From the NCBI GenBank assembly GCA_945881915.1, contig CAMCVW010000003.1, positions 62,001 through 126,000 on the forward strand: DNA of 64,000 bases. The letters run 5' to 3'. The notes under the pieces were generated by a model. It was not told where the DNA came from and did not search any database. It worked only from the letters and a program-made list of their open reading frames with translations. Positions 40,108-47,255 of the stretch are shown piece after piece. A program made the position numbers and the translations under genes. This DNA is from Thermoflexus hugenholtzii JAD2 (GTDB lineage Bacteria > Chloroflexota > Chloroflexia > Chloroflexales > Roseiflexaceae). Numbering within the stretch: the first letter of the stretch is position 1; every line of letters starts with the position of its first letter.

Positions 40108-41031
40108 TCAGCAGATTTTGCCCCGTTTGCCAGCCTTGCCGTGTGCAATGGGATGTTCCCCAATCCACCGCTCATCGATGGGTTCGTCGGCCCGCTGGTA
40201 GCGCGTATCAGTCGACAATCGAATGCGGTTCGAGGCATTATCGAGGCTTGTGTGTACCGTATAGACGCTAAAAATCAGGACATCCCCTGCAGAATAATCA
40301 GCGGTCAGCCAACGTCCACCGAGTGCTTGGCGTAACTTTACGGGATTGTCAGATAACCATCCGCCGGCACGAATGTTGCCGCCGCCACCCATATCGCTGT
40401 ATTCTGGGCCGACTTTGTTTTCGCAGAATTCATCGACATCTTTCGATCCATACCCTTCATTCAGGCGTTGATGCGTGTGCGAATGTTCCAGGACCAGCAG
40501 GCCGCCCATGGTGATCGGAATATCGCACATCGGCGTCCACGCGGTATACAGTTGTTTTGTGCCACGACCCATGTACACGATATCCATGTGTGGTGGAGTG
40601 CCTCGATTGGGAGCAACTGCACGGACCCAGGTAAAATCAAAGTGGCGCACGGCTGCGCCGAGGAGTGTTTCGAAAATAGAAATCATCTCTCCGTCATACA
40701 GCACGTCGTGAAGCGGTTGATTTGATTCACTCAAATCAGGCATGAATTGGACCTTCGATGTAGGAGCTGCAATACATGCATCTACAGGATATGCCGGGTC
40801 GGTTTGGCCACGTGCTGCAAGGCGTTCGGCCATGATGTGATGCGCAGCACTGATGGTATTTGTATCGAGCACACCTTTGAGGTAGAGGTACCCCTCAGCC
40901 TCCATAAATCCACGCATCGCGCTGGGATTAGGCAGTAGAGCGGTGCAGTCGGTCAACATCCCAAAAACATCGGGTTCCGTCGAAATATGCTTTTTCATCG
41001 AAGACAATCGAGGCAGGTTGGCTACCGTCAT
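40108..41031 (-). CDS. Phytanoyl-CoA dioxygenase (PhyH)-family iron/2-oxoglutarate oxygenase
   Basis: This 307-residue double-stranded beta-helix dioxygenase has the facial triad His148 and Asp150 (PPHMDIVYM) with distal His260 (VYTVHTSLDN), and the 2-oxoglutarate-binding Arg271 (NRIRLSTD). Family members hydroxylate fatty acyl chains, ectoine or natural products; the substrate here is unknown. AAAAGGAG precedes the ATG at 41031. It is the first gene of the minus-strand operon that continues with FKBP and Rieske genes, and lies divergent from the ilv leader. Confidence 0.92.
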   Translation of the reverse strand: MTVANLPRLSSMKKHISTEPDVFGMLTDCTALLPNPSAMRGFMEAEGYLYLKGVLDTNTISAAHHIMAERLAARGQTDPAYPVDACIAAPTSKVQFMPDLSESNQPLHDVLYDGEMISIFETLLGAAVRHFDFTWVRAVAPNRGTPPHMDIVYMGRGTKQLYTAWTPMCDIPITMGGLLVLEHSHTHQRLNEGYGSKDVDEFCENKVGPEYSDMGGGGNIRAGGWLSDNPVKLRQALGGRWLTADYSAGDVLIFSVYTVHTSLDNASNRIRLSTDTRYQRADEPIDERWIGEHPIAHGKAGKRGKIC

Positions 41032-41070
41032 TGGGAGCTCCTTTTGAGTGCGGATTTTGCTTTCATGTTT

Positions 41071-41092
41071 ATCATAGCGAACAAATGTTGTT
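41071..41092. promoter_or_regulatory. Candidate operator/promoter of the PhyH operon
   Basis: AACAA-ATG-TTGTT (41080-41092) is a perfect 5-bp inverted repeat. It lies just upstream of a TATGAT hexamer reading toward the PhyH gene (41076-41071), within the 79-bp gap to the divergent ilv leader promoter. It could serve as an operator for either unit. Confidence 0.4.
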
Positions 41093-41109
41093 GTGTATAG
41101 ATGTCAGAT

Positions 41110-41138
41110 TTGACAATTGTATTATTGATGGGTATACT
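41110..41138 (+). promoter_or_regulatory. Consensus promoter of the ilvBNC-leuA-pheA operon
   Basis: A perfect TTGACA (41110-41115), a 17-bp spacer and TATACT (41133-41138) predict a transcript start near 41145. That is 22 bases before the leader peptide start and about 190 bases before ilvB. Confidence 0.85.
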
Positions 41139-41166
41139 TTCAGAAGTTCTTTGAAAGGAACATATT

Positions 41167-41241
41167 GTGTTCAAACGTGGCCAGCTCATCCTAGTAGTTC
41201 TTATTGTTACCCTAGTCGTTCTAGCGATTACGGGTGCATAA
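41167..41241 (+). CDS. ilv operon leader peptide, branched-chain-rich (attenuation)
   Basis: This is a 24-residue open frame with a GTG start and a GAAAGGAA ribosome site 7 bases upstream. It begins MFKRGQ and continues LILVVLIVTLVVLAI before TGA-like GlyAla ends at TAA; 13 of its 24 residues are Leu (5), Val (5) or Ile (3). Three of the five Leu codons are CTA, a codon that looks uncommon in the neighbouring genes. It lies between a consensus promoter and an intrinsic terminator ahead of ilvB. Known ilv and leu attenuators have this layout: a ribosome stalled for charged Leu, Val or Ile tRNA lets transcription proceed. A tiny membrane peptide is the alternative reading. Confidence 0.82.
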   Translation: MFKRGQLILVVLIVTLVVLAITGA

Positions 41242-41248
41242 CACTATA

Positions 41249-41315
41249 GGGAGCGGCTTAACCGCACGATGAAGTAAAGTTCACCTCTCCCGTTACGGAT
41301 ACGGGAGAGGTTTTT
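41249..41315 (+). terminator. Attenuator terminator before ilvB with possible antiterminator
   Basis: The terminator stem has perfect 10-bp arms at 41284-41293 and 41301-41310 and is followed by five Ts. Upstream, GGGAG at 41249-41253 and ACGGG at 41230-41234 (in the leader frame) can each pair with its 5' arm, and GCGG-CTTAA-CCGC forms a small hairpin at 41253-41265. A ribosome that reached the leader stop would cover the first two segments and so favour termination. The antiterminator pairing is short (5 bp) and needs folding analysis. Confidence 0.82.
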
Positions 41316-41336
41316 GTTTGTACAAATGGAGGATGT

Positions 41337-43058
41337 ATGTCTGAGAAGCGTACCGGAGCTCAGATTCTGTGTGAAGCACTGATCATGAATGGTGTCGACA
41401 CGATGTTTGGTATTCCAGGCGGAGCGATTATGCCGTTCTATCACGCAATGTGGGAATACCGCAGTGATTTACGCCACATCCTCTGCCGCCACGAGCAGGG
41501 TGCAGGCCATGCTGCCGAGGGATTCGCTCGTTCAACCGGTCGAATTGGCGTCTGTATTGGCACCAGCGGCCCTGGCACTACCAACCTCGTCACGCCTATC
41601 GCGGACGCCTGGATGGACAGCACGCCCATGCTCGCCATCTGTGGGCAAGTGAGCAGCACTGTCCTTGGCAAGGATGCATTCCAAGAGACCGATATCACCG
41701 GTATCACGATGCCCATCACCAAGCACAATTACTTGGTCAAAAACATCAATGACATCGCCTATGTGGTCAAAGAAGCAATTCATATTGCTACAACGGGGCG
41801 ATATGGCCCGGTCTTGGTCGATATCACCAAAGACGCATTACAGGCGAGTGCAGTACCAGATTACAGCAAAAAAATCTTTTTGCCGGGGTATCGTCCAACG
41901 GTGACTGGCAGCAAGAAGCAAATTAAAGCTGCCCTCTCACTCATGCTCAAGAGCAAAAAACCAGTCTTGATGATTGGGAACGGCGTCATGATGTCTGATG
42001 CGAGTGCAGAGATTCGTGTCTTTGCCGAACGATACAAAATTCCTGTCATCACCACCTTGCACGCGTTGGGCGCATTCCCCGAAGACCATGATTTGTCGTT
42101 GGGCATGCCAGGTATGCACGGCTGGGTACACGTCAATCGGGCTATTCAAGAGGCAGACTTCCTGATGAATATTGGTGGTCGCTTCGATGACCGCGTCACC
42201 GGCAAGGCGTCAACATTTGCCCCGATTGCCAAAATTGTCCATGTCGACATCGACCCATCTGAGATTGGGAAAAATATCGAAGTCGAAATTCCTATTGTCG
42301 GTGACGCACGGATAGTCACCCTGTCATTGCTCGAGGAAGAACCAGAAGAGAAGTTGGTTGCTGAATTCCACAAGAATGCAGCCGAGTGGTTGACCTACAT
42401 TCGCGAGCTGCAAACCAAACACCAACACAAGCAGCAGTACCTCAACCGACCCGATACCTCGACCATGATGCCACACGATGTGTATGCCGCACTGACCAAG
42501 CAAATGAACACACGCGGCAACTATCGCGTCGTGACGGATGTTGGCCAGCACCAAATGTGGGCAGCACAATTGCTCGATTGGTACAAACCACGTACACACA
42601 TCACGTCAGGTGGTGCTGGTACGATGGGTTTTGCCGTGCCCGCTGCCCTTGGTGTTGCTGTGGCACATCCCGAAGATACCGTATGGGCAATCGCAGGTGA
42701 TGGTGGCTTCCAGATGACCAACCAAGAGATGATCGTGGTCATTCAAGAGAACATCAAAAACATGAAGATTGCCATCATCAACAATGGCTTCTTGGGCATG
42801 GTACGTCAGTGGCAAGAATTGTTCGAGGGGAAGCGCTACAGCGGAACGCCGTTAACAAGCCCGAACTTCCAGATGCTGGCAGAGGCTTATGGCTGGACCG
42901 GGATTACTGTCGAATCCGTCGACCAAATTGATGCAGCTATCGATCGTGCGTATGCCACCGATGGTCCTGTATTGATTGACTTCCGTGTCGAACGTGAAGT
43001 CAACGTGTTCCCGATGGTGCCTCAGAACAAGAGTATCGGCGAGATGATTACGGAGTAG
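41337..43058 (+). CDS. ilvB: Acetolactate synthase, large (catalytic) subunit
   Basis: This 573-residue thiamine-diphosphate enzyme makes 2-acetolactate from pyruvate, or acetohydroxybutyrate for isoleucine. The catalytic Glu53 lies in HEQGAGHAAEG. The FAD-binding middle domain spans about 190-345. The ThDP motif runs from GDGGFQMTNQE to NNGFLGMVRQWQ. TGGAGG precedes the ATG at 41337. It is the first enzyme gene after the attenuator and abuts ilvN with no gap, so the catalytic and regulatory subunits are made together. Confidence 0.98.
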   Translation: MSEKRTGAQILCEALIMNGVDTMFGIPGGAIMPFYHAMWEYRSDLRHILCRHEQGAGHAAEGFARSTGRIGVCIGTSGPGTTNLVTPIADAWMDSTPMLAICGQVSSTVLGKDAFQETDITGITMPITKHNYLVKNINDIAYVVKEAIHIATTGRYGPVLVDITKDALQASAVPDYSKKIFLPGYRPTVTGSKKQIKAALSLMLKSKKPVLMIGNGVMMSDASAEIRVFAERYKIPVITTLHALGAFPEDHDLSLGMPGMHGWVHVNRAIQEADFLMNIGGRFDDRVTGKASTFAPIAKIVHVDIDPSEIGKNIEVEIPIVGDARIVTLSLLEEEPEEKLVAEFHKNAAEWLTYIRELQTKHQHKQQYLNRPDTSTMMPHDVYAALTKQMNTRGNYRVVTDVGQHQMWAAQLLDWYKPRTHITSGGAGTMGFAVPAALGVAVAHPEDTVWAIAGDGGFQMTNQEMIVVIQENIKNMKIAIINNGFLGMVRQWQELFEGKRYSGTPLTSPNFQMLAEAYGWTGITVESVDQIDAAIDRAYATDGPVLIDFRVEREVNVFPMVPQNKSIGEMITE

Positions 43059-43577
43059 ATGATGAAAATCCATACCTTAGTGGTGCTGGTTCAGGATCAC
43101 CCAGGCGTGCTGAATCGTGCCGTGAGCATGTTTCGTCGCCGTGGCTATAACATCGCCAGTCTCGTTGTCGGCCACACCGAAACGCCCGGTGTGAGTCGGA
43201 TGACTATCGTGGTAGAATCTGAGAACGTCGAACAGGTTGTGAAGCAGCTGTATCGTTTGGTTGAGGTGCTCAAAATTTCAGACGTGACCGAAGATCCCGT
43301 GGTCGACCGTGAAATGGTGCTGGTCAAGCTCCATGTGACGGGCCAACACCGCGCCGAAATCGTCGCACTGACGGAAGTTTTCACTGCCAAAATCGTCGAT
43401 GTGGCCCAAAACACGATGGTCATCGAAATGACTGGCGGCCCCGCAAAAGTCGATAACTTTATTGATGTAATTCGTCCGTTTGGCATCAAAGAAATGATGC
43501 GCACCGGACGAATCACCATGGTACGCGGCGGTAAAGGTCATAGCGGCGCAGAACTCATCGACCAAGCAGCGGAATAA
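43059..43577 (+). CDS. ilvN: Acetolactate synthase, small (regulatory) subunit
   Basis: This 172-residue subunit has an N-terminal ACT domain ([33 protein letters not shown]) that binds valine for feedback inhibition, and the C-terminal domain that activates IlvB. The start ATG-ATG immediately follows the ilvB stop. Length and motifs are typical of IlvN/IlvH. A 61-bp spacer leads to ilvC. Confidence 0.97.
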
Positions 43578-43638: not shown

Positions 43639-44661
43639 ATGGCAAAGTTGTACTACGACAACCAGGCAGATCTGGGTCGATTCAAGGGCCGCACCGTGGC
43701 AATCATCGGATTCGGCAGCCAGGGCCATGCACACGCATTGAACCTCAAAGAGAGCGGCATTGACGTCGTCGTCGGCTTGTACGCAGGTTCCAAGAGCAAG
43801 GCTAAAGCAGAAGCAGCCGGCCTGAAGGTCATGACCGTCGCTGATGCTGCCAAGGCTGCCCAAGTTATCATGATTTTGACCCCAGATACCAATCAGTCGC
43901 AGACCTACAAAGAACACATCGCCCAGCACATGACCAAGGGCAAAACCCTGATGTTCGCGCACGGCTTCAACATTCGCTTTGGTCAGATTGTTGCACCTGA
44001 AGGCATCGACGTGAGCATGGTTGCCCCAAAGTCACCAGGTCACCGTGTACGCGAAGTCTACACCCAGGGTGGCGGCGTCCCTGCATTGGTCGCCGTGCAC
44101 CAAGATGCCAGTGGTAACGCTATGGCCGATGCTCTGGCATACGCCAAGGCAATGGGTTGTACCCGTGCCGGTGTGCTCGAGACCACCTTCGCCGAAGAAA
44201 CCGAGACCGACTTGTTCGGTGAACAGGCTGTCCTCTGTGGCGGCGTGTCCGCACTCGTCAAAGCTGGATTTGAGACGTTGGTCGAAGCTGGCTACCAGCC
44301 GGAAGTCGCCTACTTCGAATGTATGCATGAGCTCAAACTCATCGTTGACCTGTTCTACCAGGGTGGTATGAATTACATGCGTTACTCGGTATCCGATACC
44401 GCAGAGTGGGGCGATTATGTCGCTGGTTCACAGATCATCAACGAAGCATCACGTGCCTCGATGAAATCATTGTTGGCAAACATCCAAAGCGGTGCGTTTG
44501 CCGAAGACTGGATCGAAGAGAACCACAACAACCGCCCACGCTTCAACAAGATGCGTTCCGCAGACACTGATCACAAGATCGAAGTCGTCGGTCGTGAACT
44601 GCGCCGTATGATGCCGTTCGTTAACCCACGCGAAGTCATCCCCGGCCAAGGCGGCTCCTAA
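43639..44661 (+). CDS. ilvC: Ketol-acid reductoisomerase (class I)
   Basis: This 340-residue short-form enzyme converts acetolactate to dihydroxyisovalerate. The Rossmann motif is [13 protein letters not shown]. The cofactor loop reads [16 protein letters not shown]; absence of an Arg at the position after GL differs from many NADPH-specific enzymes, so cofactor preference is worth testing. Metal ligands lie in the [12 protein letters not shown] and [12 protein letters not shown] helices. GAGGAG precedes the ATG. A 14-bp hairpin separates it from leuA. Confidence 0.97.
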
Positions 44662-44721: not shown

Positions 44722-46380
44722 ATGCAGGATAGTCATGTACGAATCTTTGATACGACGTTACGCGATGGCGAACAAGCACCTGGGTGCACGATGTCGCTCG
44801 AAGAAAAGCTCGAAATAGCACGTCAGCTACATCGTCTAGGTGTCGATATCATTGAATCTGGCTTCCCTGCAGCATCACCCGGTGACTGGGCCGCAGTGCA
44901 TCAAATCGCCAAAGAAGTAGGCACTGCTGATGGTCCGGTTATCTGCGCACTCGCGCGCGCCAATCGCGACGACATCGACAAAGCATGGACTGCTATACAG
45001 CCAGCTGTGAAAAAACGCATTCATACGTTTTTATCGTCGTCCGACATTCATATCGAATATCAGTTCAAATCCACTCGCGAAAAAATGCTCGAACGCGCTC
45101 GTGAAATGGTGCGGTATGCACGTTCACTCTGCGAAGATATCGAATTTTCGCCCATGGATGCCAGCCGCTCCGACCCTGCCTATCTCCATCAAATGTTGAC
45201 GGCTGTGGTTGCCGAAGGTGCAACGACCCTCAATATTCCTGATACCGTCGGGTTCACTACGCCTGACGAATACGGCGAGATGATTCGTGGAATATTGGCA
45301 AACGTACCCGGTATCGAAAATTGCATCATATCAACGCATTGTCACGATGACTTGGGTATGGCAGTGGCGAATAGTCTGGCAGGTGTACGAGCCGGTGCAC
45401 GCCAAATCGAATGTACCATCAACGGTATCGGCGAGCGGGCTGGCAATGCATCGCTGGAGGAAGTCGTGATGGCGTTGCACACGCGCAATGCATACTATGG
45501 CATATCTACCAATGTCGTAACCACGGAATTGACCCGCAGCAGTCGGTTACTCAGCTCCTTTATCGGCATTCCCGTCCCACCGAACAAAGCGATTGTGGGT
45601 GGCAACGCATTTGCGCACGAATCAGGCATTCATCAAGACGGCGTCCTCAAAAATCGGATGACCTATGAAATCATGAGCGCCGAGACGGTCGGACTCGACG
45701 GCAACATGCTCGTCCTCGGAAAACACTCTGGTCGACATGCATTCCGGTTAAAACTCTCCGCTATGGGGTTTGAACCAGACAACGATGACGAATTCCAAAA
45801 AGTATTTGAACGCTTCAAAGAGCTCTGCGACCGCAAGAAAAAAATCGATGATCGTGATCTCGAAGCACTCATCACCGGTGAACATCATCGGGTGGAAGAA
45901 GTCTATAAACTGGAACACGTCCAGGTCATTACTGGTACCAGTCTGACTCCTGTAGCGACGGTGCGACTCATTGACCAACAGGGGAATCCATATCTCGCTG
46001 CCGCCCACGGGACGGGCCCTGTGGATGCAATCTACAAAGCCATTGACAGTGTCGTCAAACGCCCTGTCGAATTACTCGAGTTTTCGATAAACTCGGTGAC
46101 TGAAGGTATCGATGCGGTCGCAGAGGTTTCCGTGCGCATTCGCGACACTATCGCCGCCCAACAAGCCGCAGCAAATCCAGGGATTGACCTGTTCAGCGGA
46201 TACGGCGTTCACACTGACACCATGGTCGCAGCCGCCGAAGCCTATATGGGCGCTTTAAATAAGTTACTCCAAGACCGCGGACGGCGTATCAACGACGAGA
46301 AATCGGCGTATGCAGATGGCTACGATCAATCAAAAACCGGCTACGCCATTGATTCATTCGCAAATACCGGTAAGCAGTAG
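44722..46380 (+). CDS. leuA: 2-isopropylmalate synthase
   Basis: This 552-residue enzyme commits 2-ketoisovalerate to leucine. Motifs are FDTTLRDGEQAPG (metal and substrate), the central STHCHDDLGMAVANSLAG, and GIGERAGNASLEEVVMAL. The C-terminal LeuA regulatory domain (about 390-515) should bind leucine. The specificity segment and the adjacent ilvC favour isopropylmalate rather than citramalate synthase. AAAGGA precedes the ATG at 44722. Confidence 0.95.
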   Translation: MQDSHVRIFDTTLRDGEQAPGCTMSLEEKLEIARQLHRLGVDIIESGFPAASPGDWAAVHQIAKEVGTADGPVICALARANRDDIDKAWTAIQPAVKKRIHTFLSSSDIHIEYQFKSTREKMLERAREMVRYARSLCEDIEFSPMDASRSDPAYLHQMLTAVVAEGATTLNIPDTVGFTTPDEYGEMIRGILANVPGIENCIISTHCHDDLGMAVANSLAGVRAGARQIECTINGIGERAGNASLEEVVMALHTRNAYYGISTNVVTTELTRSSRLLSSFIGIPVPPNKAIVGGNAFAHESGIHQDGVLKNRMTYEIMSAETVGLDGNMLVLGKHSGRHAFRLKLSAMGFEPDNDDEFQKVFERFKELCDRKKKIDDRDLEALITGEHHRVEEVYKLEHVQVITGTSLTPVATVRLIDQQGNPYLAAAHGTGPVDAIYKAIDSVVKRPVELLEFSINSVTEGIDAVAEVSVRIRDTIAAQQAAANPGIDLFSGYGVHTDTMVAAAEAYMGALNKLLQDRGRRINDEKSAYADGYDQSKTGYAIDSFANTGKQ

Positions 46381-46391
46381 TTTCAGAAAGG

Positions 46392-46415
46392 CGCCGCAGG
46401 TACATGCCTGCGGCG
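46392..46415 (+). other. Intercistronic hairpin, leuA-pheA
   Basis: CGCCGCAGG and CCTGCGGCG form a 9-bp stem around TACATG. No T tract follows. The ATG in its loop (46404) is an alternative start for pheA that the structure would hide. Confidence 0.65.
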
Positions 46416-46424
46416 TACGTTATC

Positions 46425-47255
46425 ATGCGCATTAGTTTTCTGGGCCCCGCTGGCACGTATAGCGAAATCGCAGCTCTTGCCTATGCTACGACATCCGATT
46501 CGGTTGTTGCCTGTACGTCGCACACCACTGTTGTGGCGGCTGTCGAAAACGGCGATGCAGATGTCGCCATGATGCCCATCGAAAACGTCCTCGAAGGGGC
46601 TATCACGGTAACTCTTGATTTACTCATCCACGAAACCGCTCTCCGGATCTGTGCCGAAACCGTCGTCCCGATAAAACATCAACTCCTTGGCCGTTTTGGA
46701 TTTGACATAACATTAGCAAAAATCCTCTACGGACATCCACAATCGCTCGCACAGTGCCGTCATTTCATTGAATCTCACCTCCCGCATGTTACATCCGTCG
46801 CCTCATTGTCGAATAGTGCTGCGCCAGCTGATGCGTTGGCCTCGGCAGTGCCTGCTGTCGCAATAGGAACCGTACGTGCTGCCGAGTTGACGGGTACGTG
46901 TATTTTGGTTCCCGACATTCAAGACCGACATAACAATGTCACTCGTTTTGTTGCACTTGCACGACAAGACCATGTTCCGACCGGGAATGACAAAACGAGC
47001 TTGTGCTTTGGGTTCGATCGAGAAGATCAGCCTGGGCAGGTCGTACGCGTCCTCGAAATTCTGGCCAAAGCAAACATCAACATGATTAAACTAGAATCTC
47101 GTCCTTCAAAAGCGGTGTTAGGCGAATATGTCTTTTTGGTTGATATCAATGGCCACCGCGAAGATCCTCACATTGCCGAAGCACTCGCTGCTATGCAAAC
47201 ACAAACTGGCTTCCTCAAAATATTCGGGAGCTACCCGTGCTATGCAAAAGACTAA
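46425..47255 (+). CDS. pheA: Prephenate dehydratase (monofunctional)
   Basis: This 276-residue enzyme makes phenylpyruvate for phenylalanine synthesis. It starts MRISFLGPAGTYSEIAA, has the catalytic NVTRFVAL (TRF) motif and a C-terminal ACT domain (LCFGFDREDQPGQVVRVLE, KLESRPSK) for phenylalanine feedback. There is no chorismate mutase fusion. The start at 46425 matches the conserved N-terminus although its ribosome site is weak; ATG 46404 adds seven residues and lies in a hairpin loop. Its position in an ilv-leu operon is unusual. Confidence 0.94.
   Translation: MRISFLGPAGTYSEIAALAYATTSDSVVACTSHTTVVAAVENGDADVAMMPIENVLEGAITVTLDLLIHETALRICAETVVPIKHQLLGRFGFDITLAKILYGHPQSLAQCRHFIESHLPHVTSVASLSNSAAPADALASAVPAVAIGTVRAAELTGTCILVPDIQDRHNNVTRFVALARQDHVPTGNDKTSLCFGFDREDQPGQVVRVLEILAKANINMIKLESRPSKAVLGEYVFLVDINGHREDPHIAEALAAMQTQTGFLKIFGSYPCYAKD

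Follow-up and report, generated by a model that had tools for sequence, protein, structure and literature searches.

Our analysis indicates that the ilvBNC-leuA-pheA operon in the window, by which we mean the whole 64,000-nucleotide stretch of DNA analyzed, is governed by a classical ribosome-mediated transcription attenuator, a reading to which we assign a probability of about 0.9. The leader probably senses charged leucine, valine and isoleucine tRNAs. The features of an attenuator that can be tested from sequence were found: an end-product-rich frame with a Shine-Dalgarno (SD) sequence, an intrinsic terminator, a pairing between RNA segments 2 and 3 (2:3) that is evident by comparison, and a pairing between segments 1 and 2 (1:2) that involves the control codons. 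A preliminary description of this DNA had proposed the same attenuation logic for the operon and was largely right, as the leader, the terminator and the pairing segment are kept in relatives. The host belongs to the Chloroflexota, a possibility which that description had raised.

All of these parts, and the operon itself, lie on the forward strand. A near-consensus sigma-70 type promoter, TTGACA-N17-TATACT, is present at 41110-41138 (11/12 matches), and promoters scoring at least 10/12 were found 5' of the leader in 46/68 relatives, compared to 1.3% of shuffles. The leader peptide frame (41167-41241) has 24 codons, with its own SD, AAAGGA, at 41154-41159, a GTG start at 41167 and a TAA stop at 41239-41241, and its translation is (V/M)FKRGQLILVVLIVTLVVLAITGA. 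The terminator stem at 41283-41311 has 10-11 bp (11 pairs) and a 7-nt loop, followed by TTTTTGTTT, and 25 bp separate the hairpin from ilvB. Promoter, leader frame and a 10-bp terminator had all been noted in the preliminary description, and each was recovered here. The ilvB gene (41337-43058; ATG at 41337, SD GGAGG at 41328-41332) encodes the acetolactate synthase large subunit (TIGR00118, 703 bits, above cut-off). Based on curated models, it is followed by ilvN (acetolactate synthase small subunit, 43059-43577, TIGR00119), ilvC (ketol-acid reductoisomerase, 43639-44661, TIGR00465), leuA (2-isopropylmalate synthase, 44722-46380, TIGR00973) and pheA (prephenate dehydratase, 46404-47255, PRK11898). 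The gene 5' of the promoter is on the reverse strand (40108-41031, 307 aa) and had no match in NCBIfam at E 1e-20. Because that gene is divergent, the promoter and terminator can serve only the ilvB operon.

The composition of the leader is unusual. Leucine, valine and isoleucine account for 13 of its 24 codons, three of them the rare CTA, as the preliminary description had counted. The probability of at least 13 such residues out of 23 is 4e-4 when the expectation is taken from the gene composition of the window itself. CTA makes up 3/5 of the leucine codons in the leader, versus 1.7% in the eight neighboring window genes on which the codon-usage comparison was based. Eight Leu/Val/Ile-rich short open reading frames occur in the 64 kb, and only the leader has such a terminator after it. 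As codons for all three amino acids are abundant, the sensing is likely multivalent, and the rare CTA codons point to leucine as a strong input.

Four RNA segments can be recognized. Segment 1, GGCCAGCUCAUCCUAGUAGUU (about 41179-41199, codons Gly5-Val11), is predicted by folding to pair with CACUAUAGGGAGCGGCUU at 41242-41259, which is segment 2; this third element had been overlooked in the earlier layout of leader and terminator, both of which stand. The leader through segment 2 folds at -32 kcal/mol, and the 1:2 pairing in the window has p = 0.023 against shuffled segment 2, although p<0.05 was reached at only 20/75 loci. The core of segment 2, GGGAG at 41249-41253, can alternatively pair with CUCCC in segment 3, the terminator 5' arm ACCTCTCCCGT (41283-41293). 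Segment 4 is the 3' arm ACGGGAGAGGT with its U tract (41301-41319). A small hairpin, GCGG-CTTAA-CCGC (41253-41265), is conserved within the genus only. The preliminary description had named two possible partners for the terminator 5' arm, both of which are at the positions it gave. GGGAG is conserved, while ACGGG at 41230-41234 was dropped as an antiterminator partner, genus relatives having TGTGGG or AAGAGC there.

From these parts we infer the following cycle. Transcription would begin near 41145, with the leader translated as it is synthesized. When charged leucine, valine and isoleucine tRNAs are plentiful, the ribosome would reach the stop codon, or depart so that segment 1 pairs with segment 2; with segment 2 occupied, segment 3 would pair with segment 4 and the transcript would end near 41315. 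When branched-chain aminoacyl-tRNA is scarce, the ribosome would stall on the leader's Leu/Val/Ile codons, several of which are the rare CTA. The stalled ribosome would cover segment 1, and the 2:3 pairing would then precede the synthesis of segment 4, allowing read-through into ilvB. The GGGAG core sits 8-12 nt past the leader stop, at the edge of the ribosome footprint. A ribosome that has reached the stop codon may therefore mask it incompletely, and re-pairing of segment 1 may contribute.

Within the genus, all ten genomes with the ilvB locus had a GTG-started leader, CTATAGGGAG 3' of its stop and the terminator CCTCTCCCG...CGGGAGAGG. Leader substitutions mostly retained leucine, valine or isoleucine, synonymous changes were present, and pN/pS was 0.36-0.57 for the more distant genus pairs. 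CTA9, GTA10, CTA16 and GTC17 were invariant across the 24-codon leaders, with other third positions varying. These are the signs of a conserved leader frame that the preliminary description had suggested looking for. As CTA9 and GTA10 lie within segment 1, they may serve in pairing and sensing alike.

To follow the device further, we looked for ilvB in genomes of the family (26), the order (82) and the class (158), and upstream regions were taken for a large sample. A leader, a G-rich segment 2 near the stop and a complementary terminator 5' arm were present in 22/22 family genomes with enough upstream sequence, including two (L096 and L103) with imperfect stems that were judged by eye. The device was also present in most genomes of the rest of the order, and most of the examined Thermomicrobia-like genomes of the class have it before ilvB. 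Relatives thus retain both the leader frame and the terminator, the joint loss of which the preliminary description had regarded as fatal to its proposal. Across the Chloroflexia set, leaders have 24-30 codons; that of G032, which we take to be Chloroflexus aurantiacus, is MVAHFVSLILLVLVLLLSLIGGWSKRV. No leader was found within 600 nt of ilvB in the f2 genomes L133 and L140. In Chloroflexales with ilvD-headed operons, the whole device was found before ilvD and not before ilvB in 13/13 cases (12/12 fetched genomes, plus G056 from the blind pattern search described below). The position of the attenuator thus tracks the head of the operon. A Leu/Val/Ile-rich frame ending in LGL-stop was observed before ilvB in the f5 genomes L171, L172 and L173, and the end of this frame is complementary to a CCAAG element farther 3'. 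No obvious terminator of such type was found upstream of ilvB in these three, for which reason they were left out of the counts; they possibly represent a different attenuation design.

A fixed detector, requiring a Leu/Val/Ile-rich open reading frame and then a terminator, was positive in 60/75 relatives, in 0/375 dinucleotide shuffles, and in 4/73 ilvB upstream regions of a named genome collection, mostly of other phyla and classes. Outside the Chloroflexia, it flags L036 (Thermus igniterrae), L059, L061 (Corynebacterium) and L066 upstream of ilvB. A blind search for GGGAGG-N20-50-CCTCCC-N3-13-GGGAGG-NN-TTT gave 19 matches in 82 genomes, of which 17 were ilv leaders.

The 2:3 helix was examined by covariation. 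A cross-family MAFFT alignment was dropped for this purpose, as it placed the GGGAG of the window's group one column off; covariation was therefore counted on blocks in which segments 2 and 3 were anchored independently, on GGGAGG and CCTCCC. In these blocks, the core 2:3 pairs were present in 40-49 of the 49 lineages. Changes in one segment matched by compensatory changes in the other were found as GCGGAAGG/CCUUCCGC (L142 and L182), GAGAGG/CCUCUC (L145) and CGGAGG/CCUCCG (L167). The observed mean helix length exceeded that of all 2000 partner reshuffles, a count that is not a probability because the lineages are related by descent. The 2:3 duplex was better than with shuffled spacers at p<0.05 in 46/75 loci. 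In the window, the helix has just five contiguous pairs and was not above chance (p = 0.28 against shuffled spacers).

The weakness of the window's own 2:3 pairing would suit a different explanation, in which the short frame codes for a genuine small membrane peptide and the terminator works as an ordinary constitutive brake, with no ribosome-controlled switching. The peptide is hydrophobic, as this explanation predicts, though that is expected for any run of leucine, valine and isoleucine, and it has no significant Pfam match. Moreover, the peptide diverges strongly among relatives, yet it remains rich in Leu/Val/Ile, and both the segment close to the stop and the complementarity of that segment to the terminator persist. 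The synonymous codons of segment 1 and the rare CTA codons are fixed, and the device relocates with the operon head. A membrane peptide with a constitutive brake is, in light of these observations, very improbable.

Modeling of the folding of the attenuator gave a median antiterminator probability over 75 loci of 0.99 with the ribosome on Leu/Val/Ile codons, 0.17 when it had reached the stop codon, and 0.04 when no ribosome was present. The corresponding values for the window were about 0.5-0.7, 0.17 and 0.06. However, shuffled spacers also gave substantial values in the stalled state, with an average of 0.64 in the relatives and 0.43 in the window (real value, 0.51), as any G-rich spacer pairs with CCTCCC. 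Switch energetics alone therefore prove little, and we use the folding as support only; the case for a switch is made by comparison, not by energies. As soon as segment 4 is available, the energy minimum is the terminator, even when segment 2 is free, so antitermination would have to be kinetic.

A further explanation is that the leader acts mainly on the translation or reinitiation of ilvB and not on transcription. In the window, ilvB begins 25 nt 3' of the hairpin, whose 5' arm (segment 3, CCTCTCC) might also base-pair with the SD of ilvB, GGAGG. In many relatives, though, 120-400 nt, at times with a further small frame, lie between the terminator and the first gene, and the U tract is kept. 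We regard this explanation as extremely unlikely. The further frame is conserved between the terminator and ilvB or ilvD in several Chloroflexaceae, one family genome and Herpetosiphon-like genomes (L113, L118, L105, L130, L132, L098, L183, L184 and L185), and the window is without it. It has about 30-42 codons, usually its own SD, a helix-like N-terminus, PVPVPV or PIPI and an arginine run (e.g., MDAIIRKIKELIERLRGPQPLPAPVPVPVRRRR in L113), and had no match in Pfam.

In three relatives, a complete T-box leader (RF00230) was observed immediately 5' of the leader attenuator and ilvB. These were all three f9 genomes examined, with T-boxes at L162:80-297, L168:48-262 and L189:29-238 and full scores of 147, 138 and 107 bits, respectively. 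The specifier of the L168 T-box, judged by position, tentatively reads CUC (Leu). This tandem would provide a natural test of why two charging sensors should be placed in series.

T-boxes before the same leader in three genomes of one Chloroflexia family might suggest that sensing is done by a riboswitch that binds a metabolite or a tRNA (a T-box, a ppGpp riboswitch or one of unknown type), with the leader frame incidental, and ppGpp riboswitches do precede ilvB in some Firmicutes (PMC10272879). Searches with Rfam, covering ilv/leu leaders, the T-box and the ppGpp riboswitch, gave no match at the gathering threshold in the 64 kb, none at the relaxed threshold of E<=1 over 41000-41400, and none in Chloroflexales relatives. 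In addition, the 40-60 nt from leader to terminator leave little space for an aptamer, and what is conserved is the frame and the complementary segments. That a riboswitch is the sensor is thus hardly plausible, and ribosome-mediated attenuation remains our preferred reading.

Beyond the window, the comparisons suggest an undescribed, class-wide family of branched-chain leader-peptide attenuators in the Chloroflexia. Built around a recurring GGGAGG/CCUCCC/GGGAGG three-way switch, it would keep to the first gene of the operon, whether ilvB or ilvD; in one lineage it stands behind a T-box, so that two independent tRNA-charging sensors would control a single operon. We lean toward this wider proposal with some reserve. 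In the open-access literature we found no description of such an attenuator in Chloroflexota; the survey by Lopatovskaya et al. 2010, reportedly the main comparative survey of attenuation across bacteria, was outside that coverage. Ribosome-mediated attenuation has been described mainly in Proteobacteria and Actinobacteria. Its conservation across an entire class of a deep phylum points to a strategy that is more ancient, or has evolved more often, than is commonly supposed. The range includes genomes taken to be those of the cultured phototrophs Chloroflexus and Roseiflexus, and the device yields a specific prediction about regulation that can be tested in organisms with little-studied amino-acid control.

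The enterobacterial ilvB (ivbL), ilvGMEDA (ilvL) and leu (leuL) leaders are multi-segment attenuators with branched-chain control codons. The Chloroflexia device shares this multi-segment logic and these control codons, including rare CUA leucine codons as in leuL, and the 1:2, 2:3 and 3:4 arrangement in the window is that of the trp and leu attenuators. It differs from the enterobacterial systems in its operon content, ilvBNC-leuA-pheA, and has no detectable sequence relation to them. T-box ilv leaders (RF00230) likewise sense aminoacyl-tRNA charging via termination and antitermination; unlike the Chloroflexia device, the T-box, which is absent from the window, binds tRNA directly without translation. 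The leucine-rich leader of the Staphylococcus aureus ilv-leu attenuator is similar, although that system is of a Firmicute and is combined with CodY (PMC5794164).

The Chloroflexia device shares the working principle of the enterobacterial and corynebacterial ilv/leu attenuators (PMC10272879, PMC11857589, PMC1262725), and the Corynebacterium ilvBNC attenuator, like the device described here, has a Leu/Val/Ile-rich upstream frame and a terminator/antiterminator before ilvBNC. The leader of that attenuator, or ilvB-II motif, has 15-17 codons (PMC10272879, PMC11857589). By description, the Chloroflexia device is set apart from ilvB-II by its leader of 24-30 codons, its occurrence in another phylum and its presence also before ilvD. 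In the Chloroflexia, moreover, segment 2 is of the GGGAGG type and pairs with the codons that form segment 1, and there is no similarity to the Corynebacterium attenuator that Rfam recognizes.
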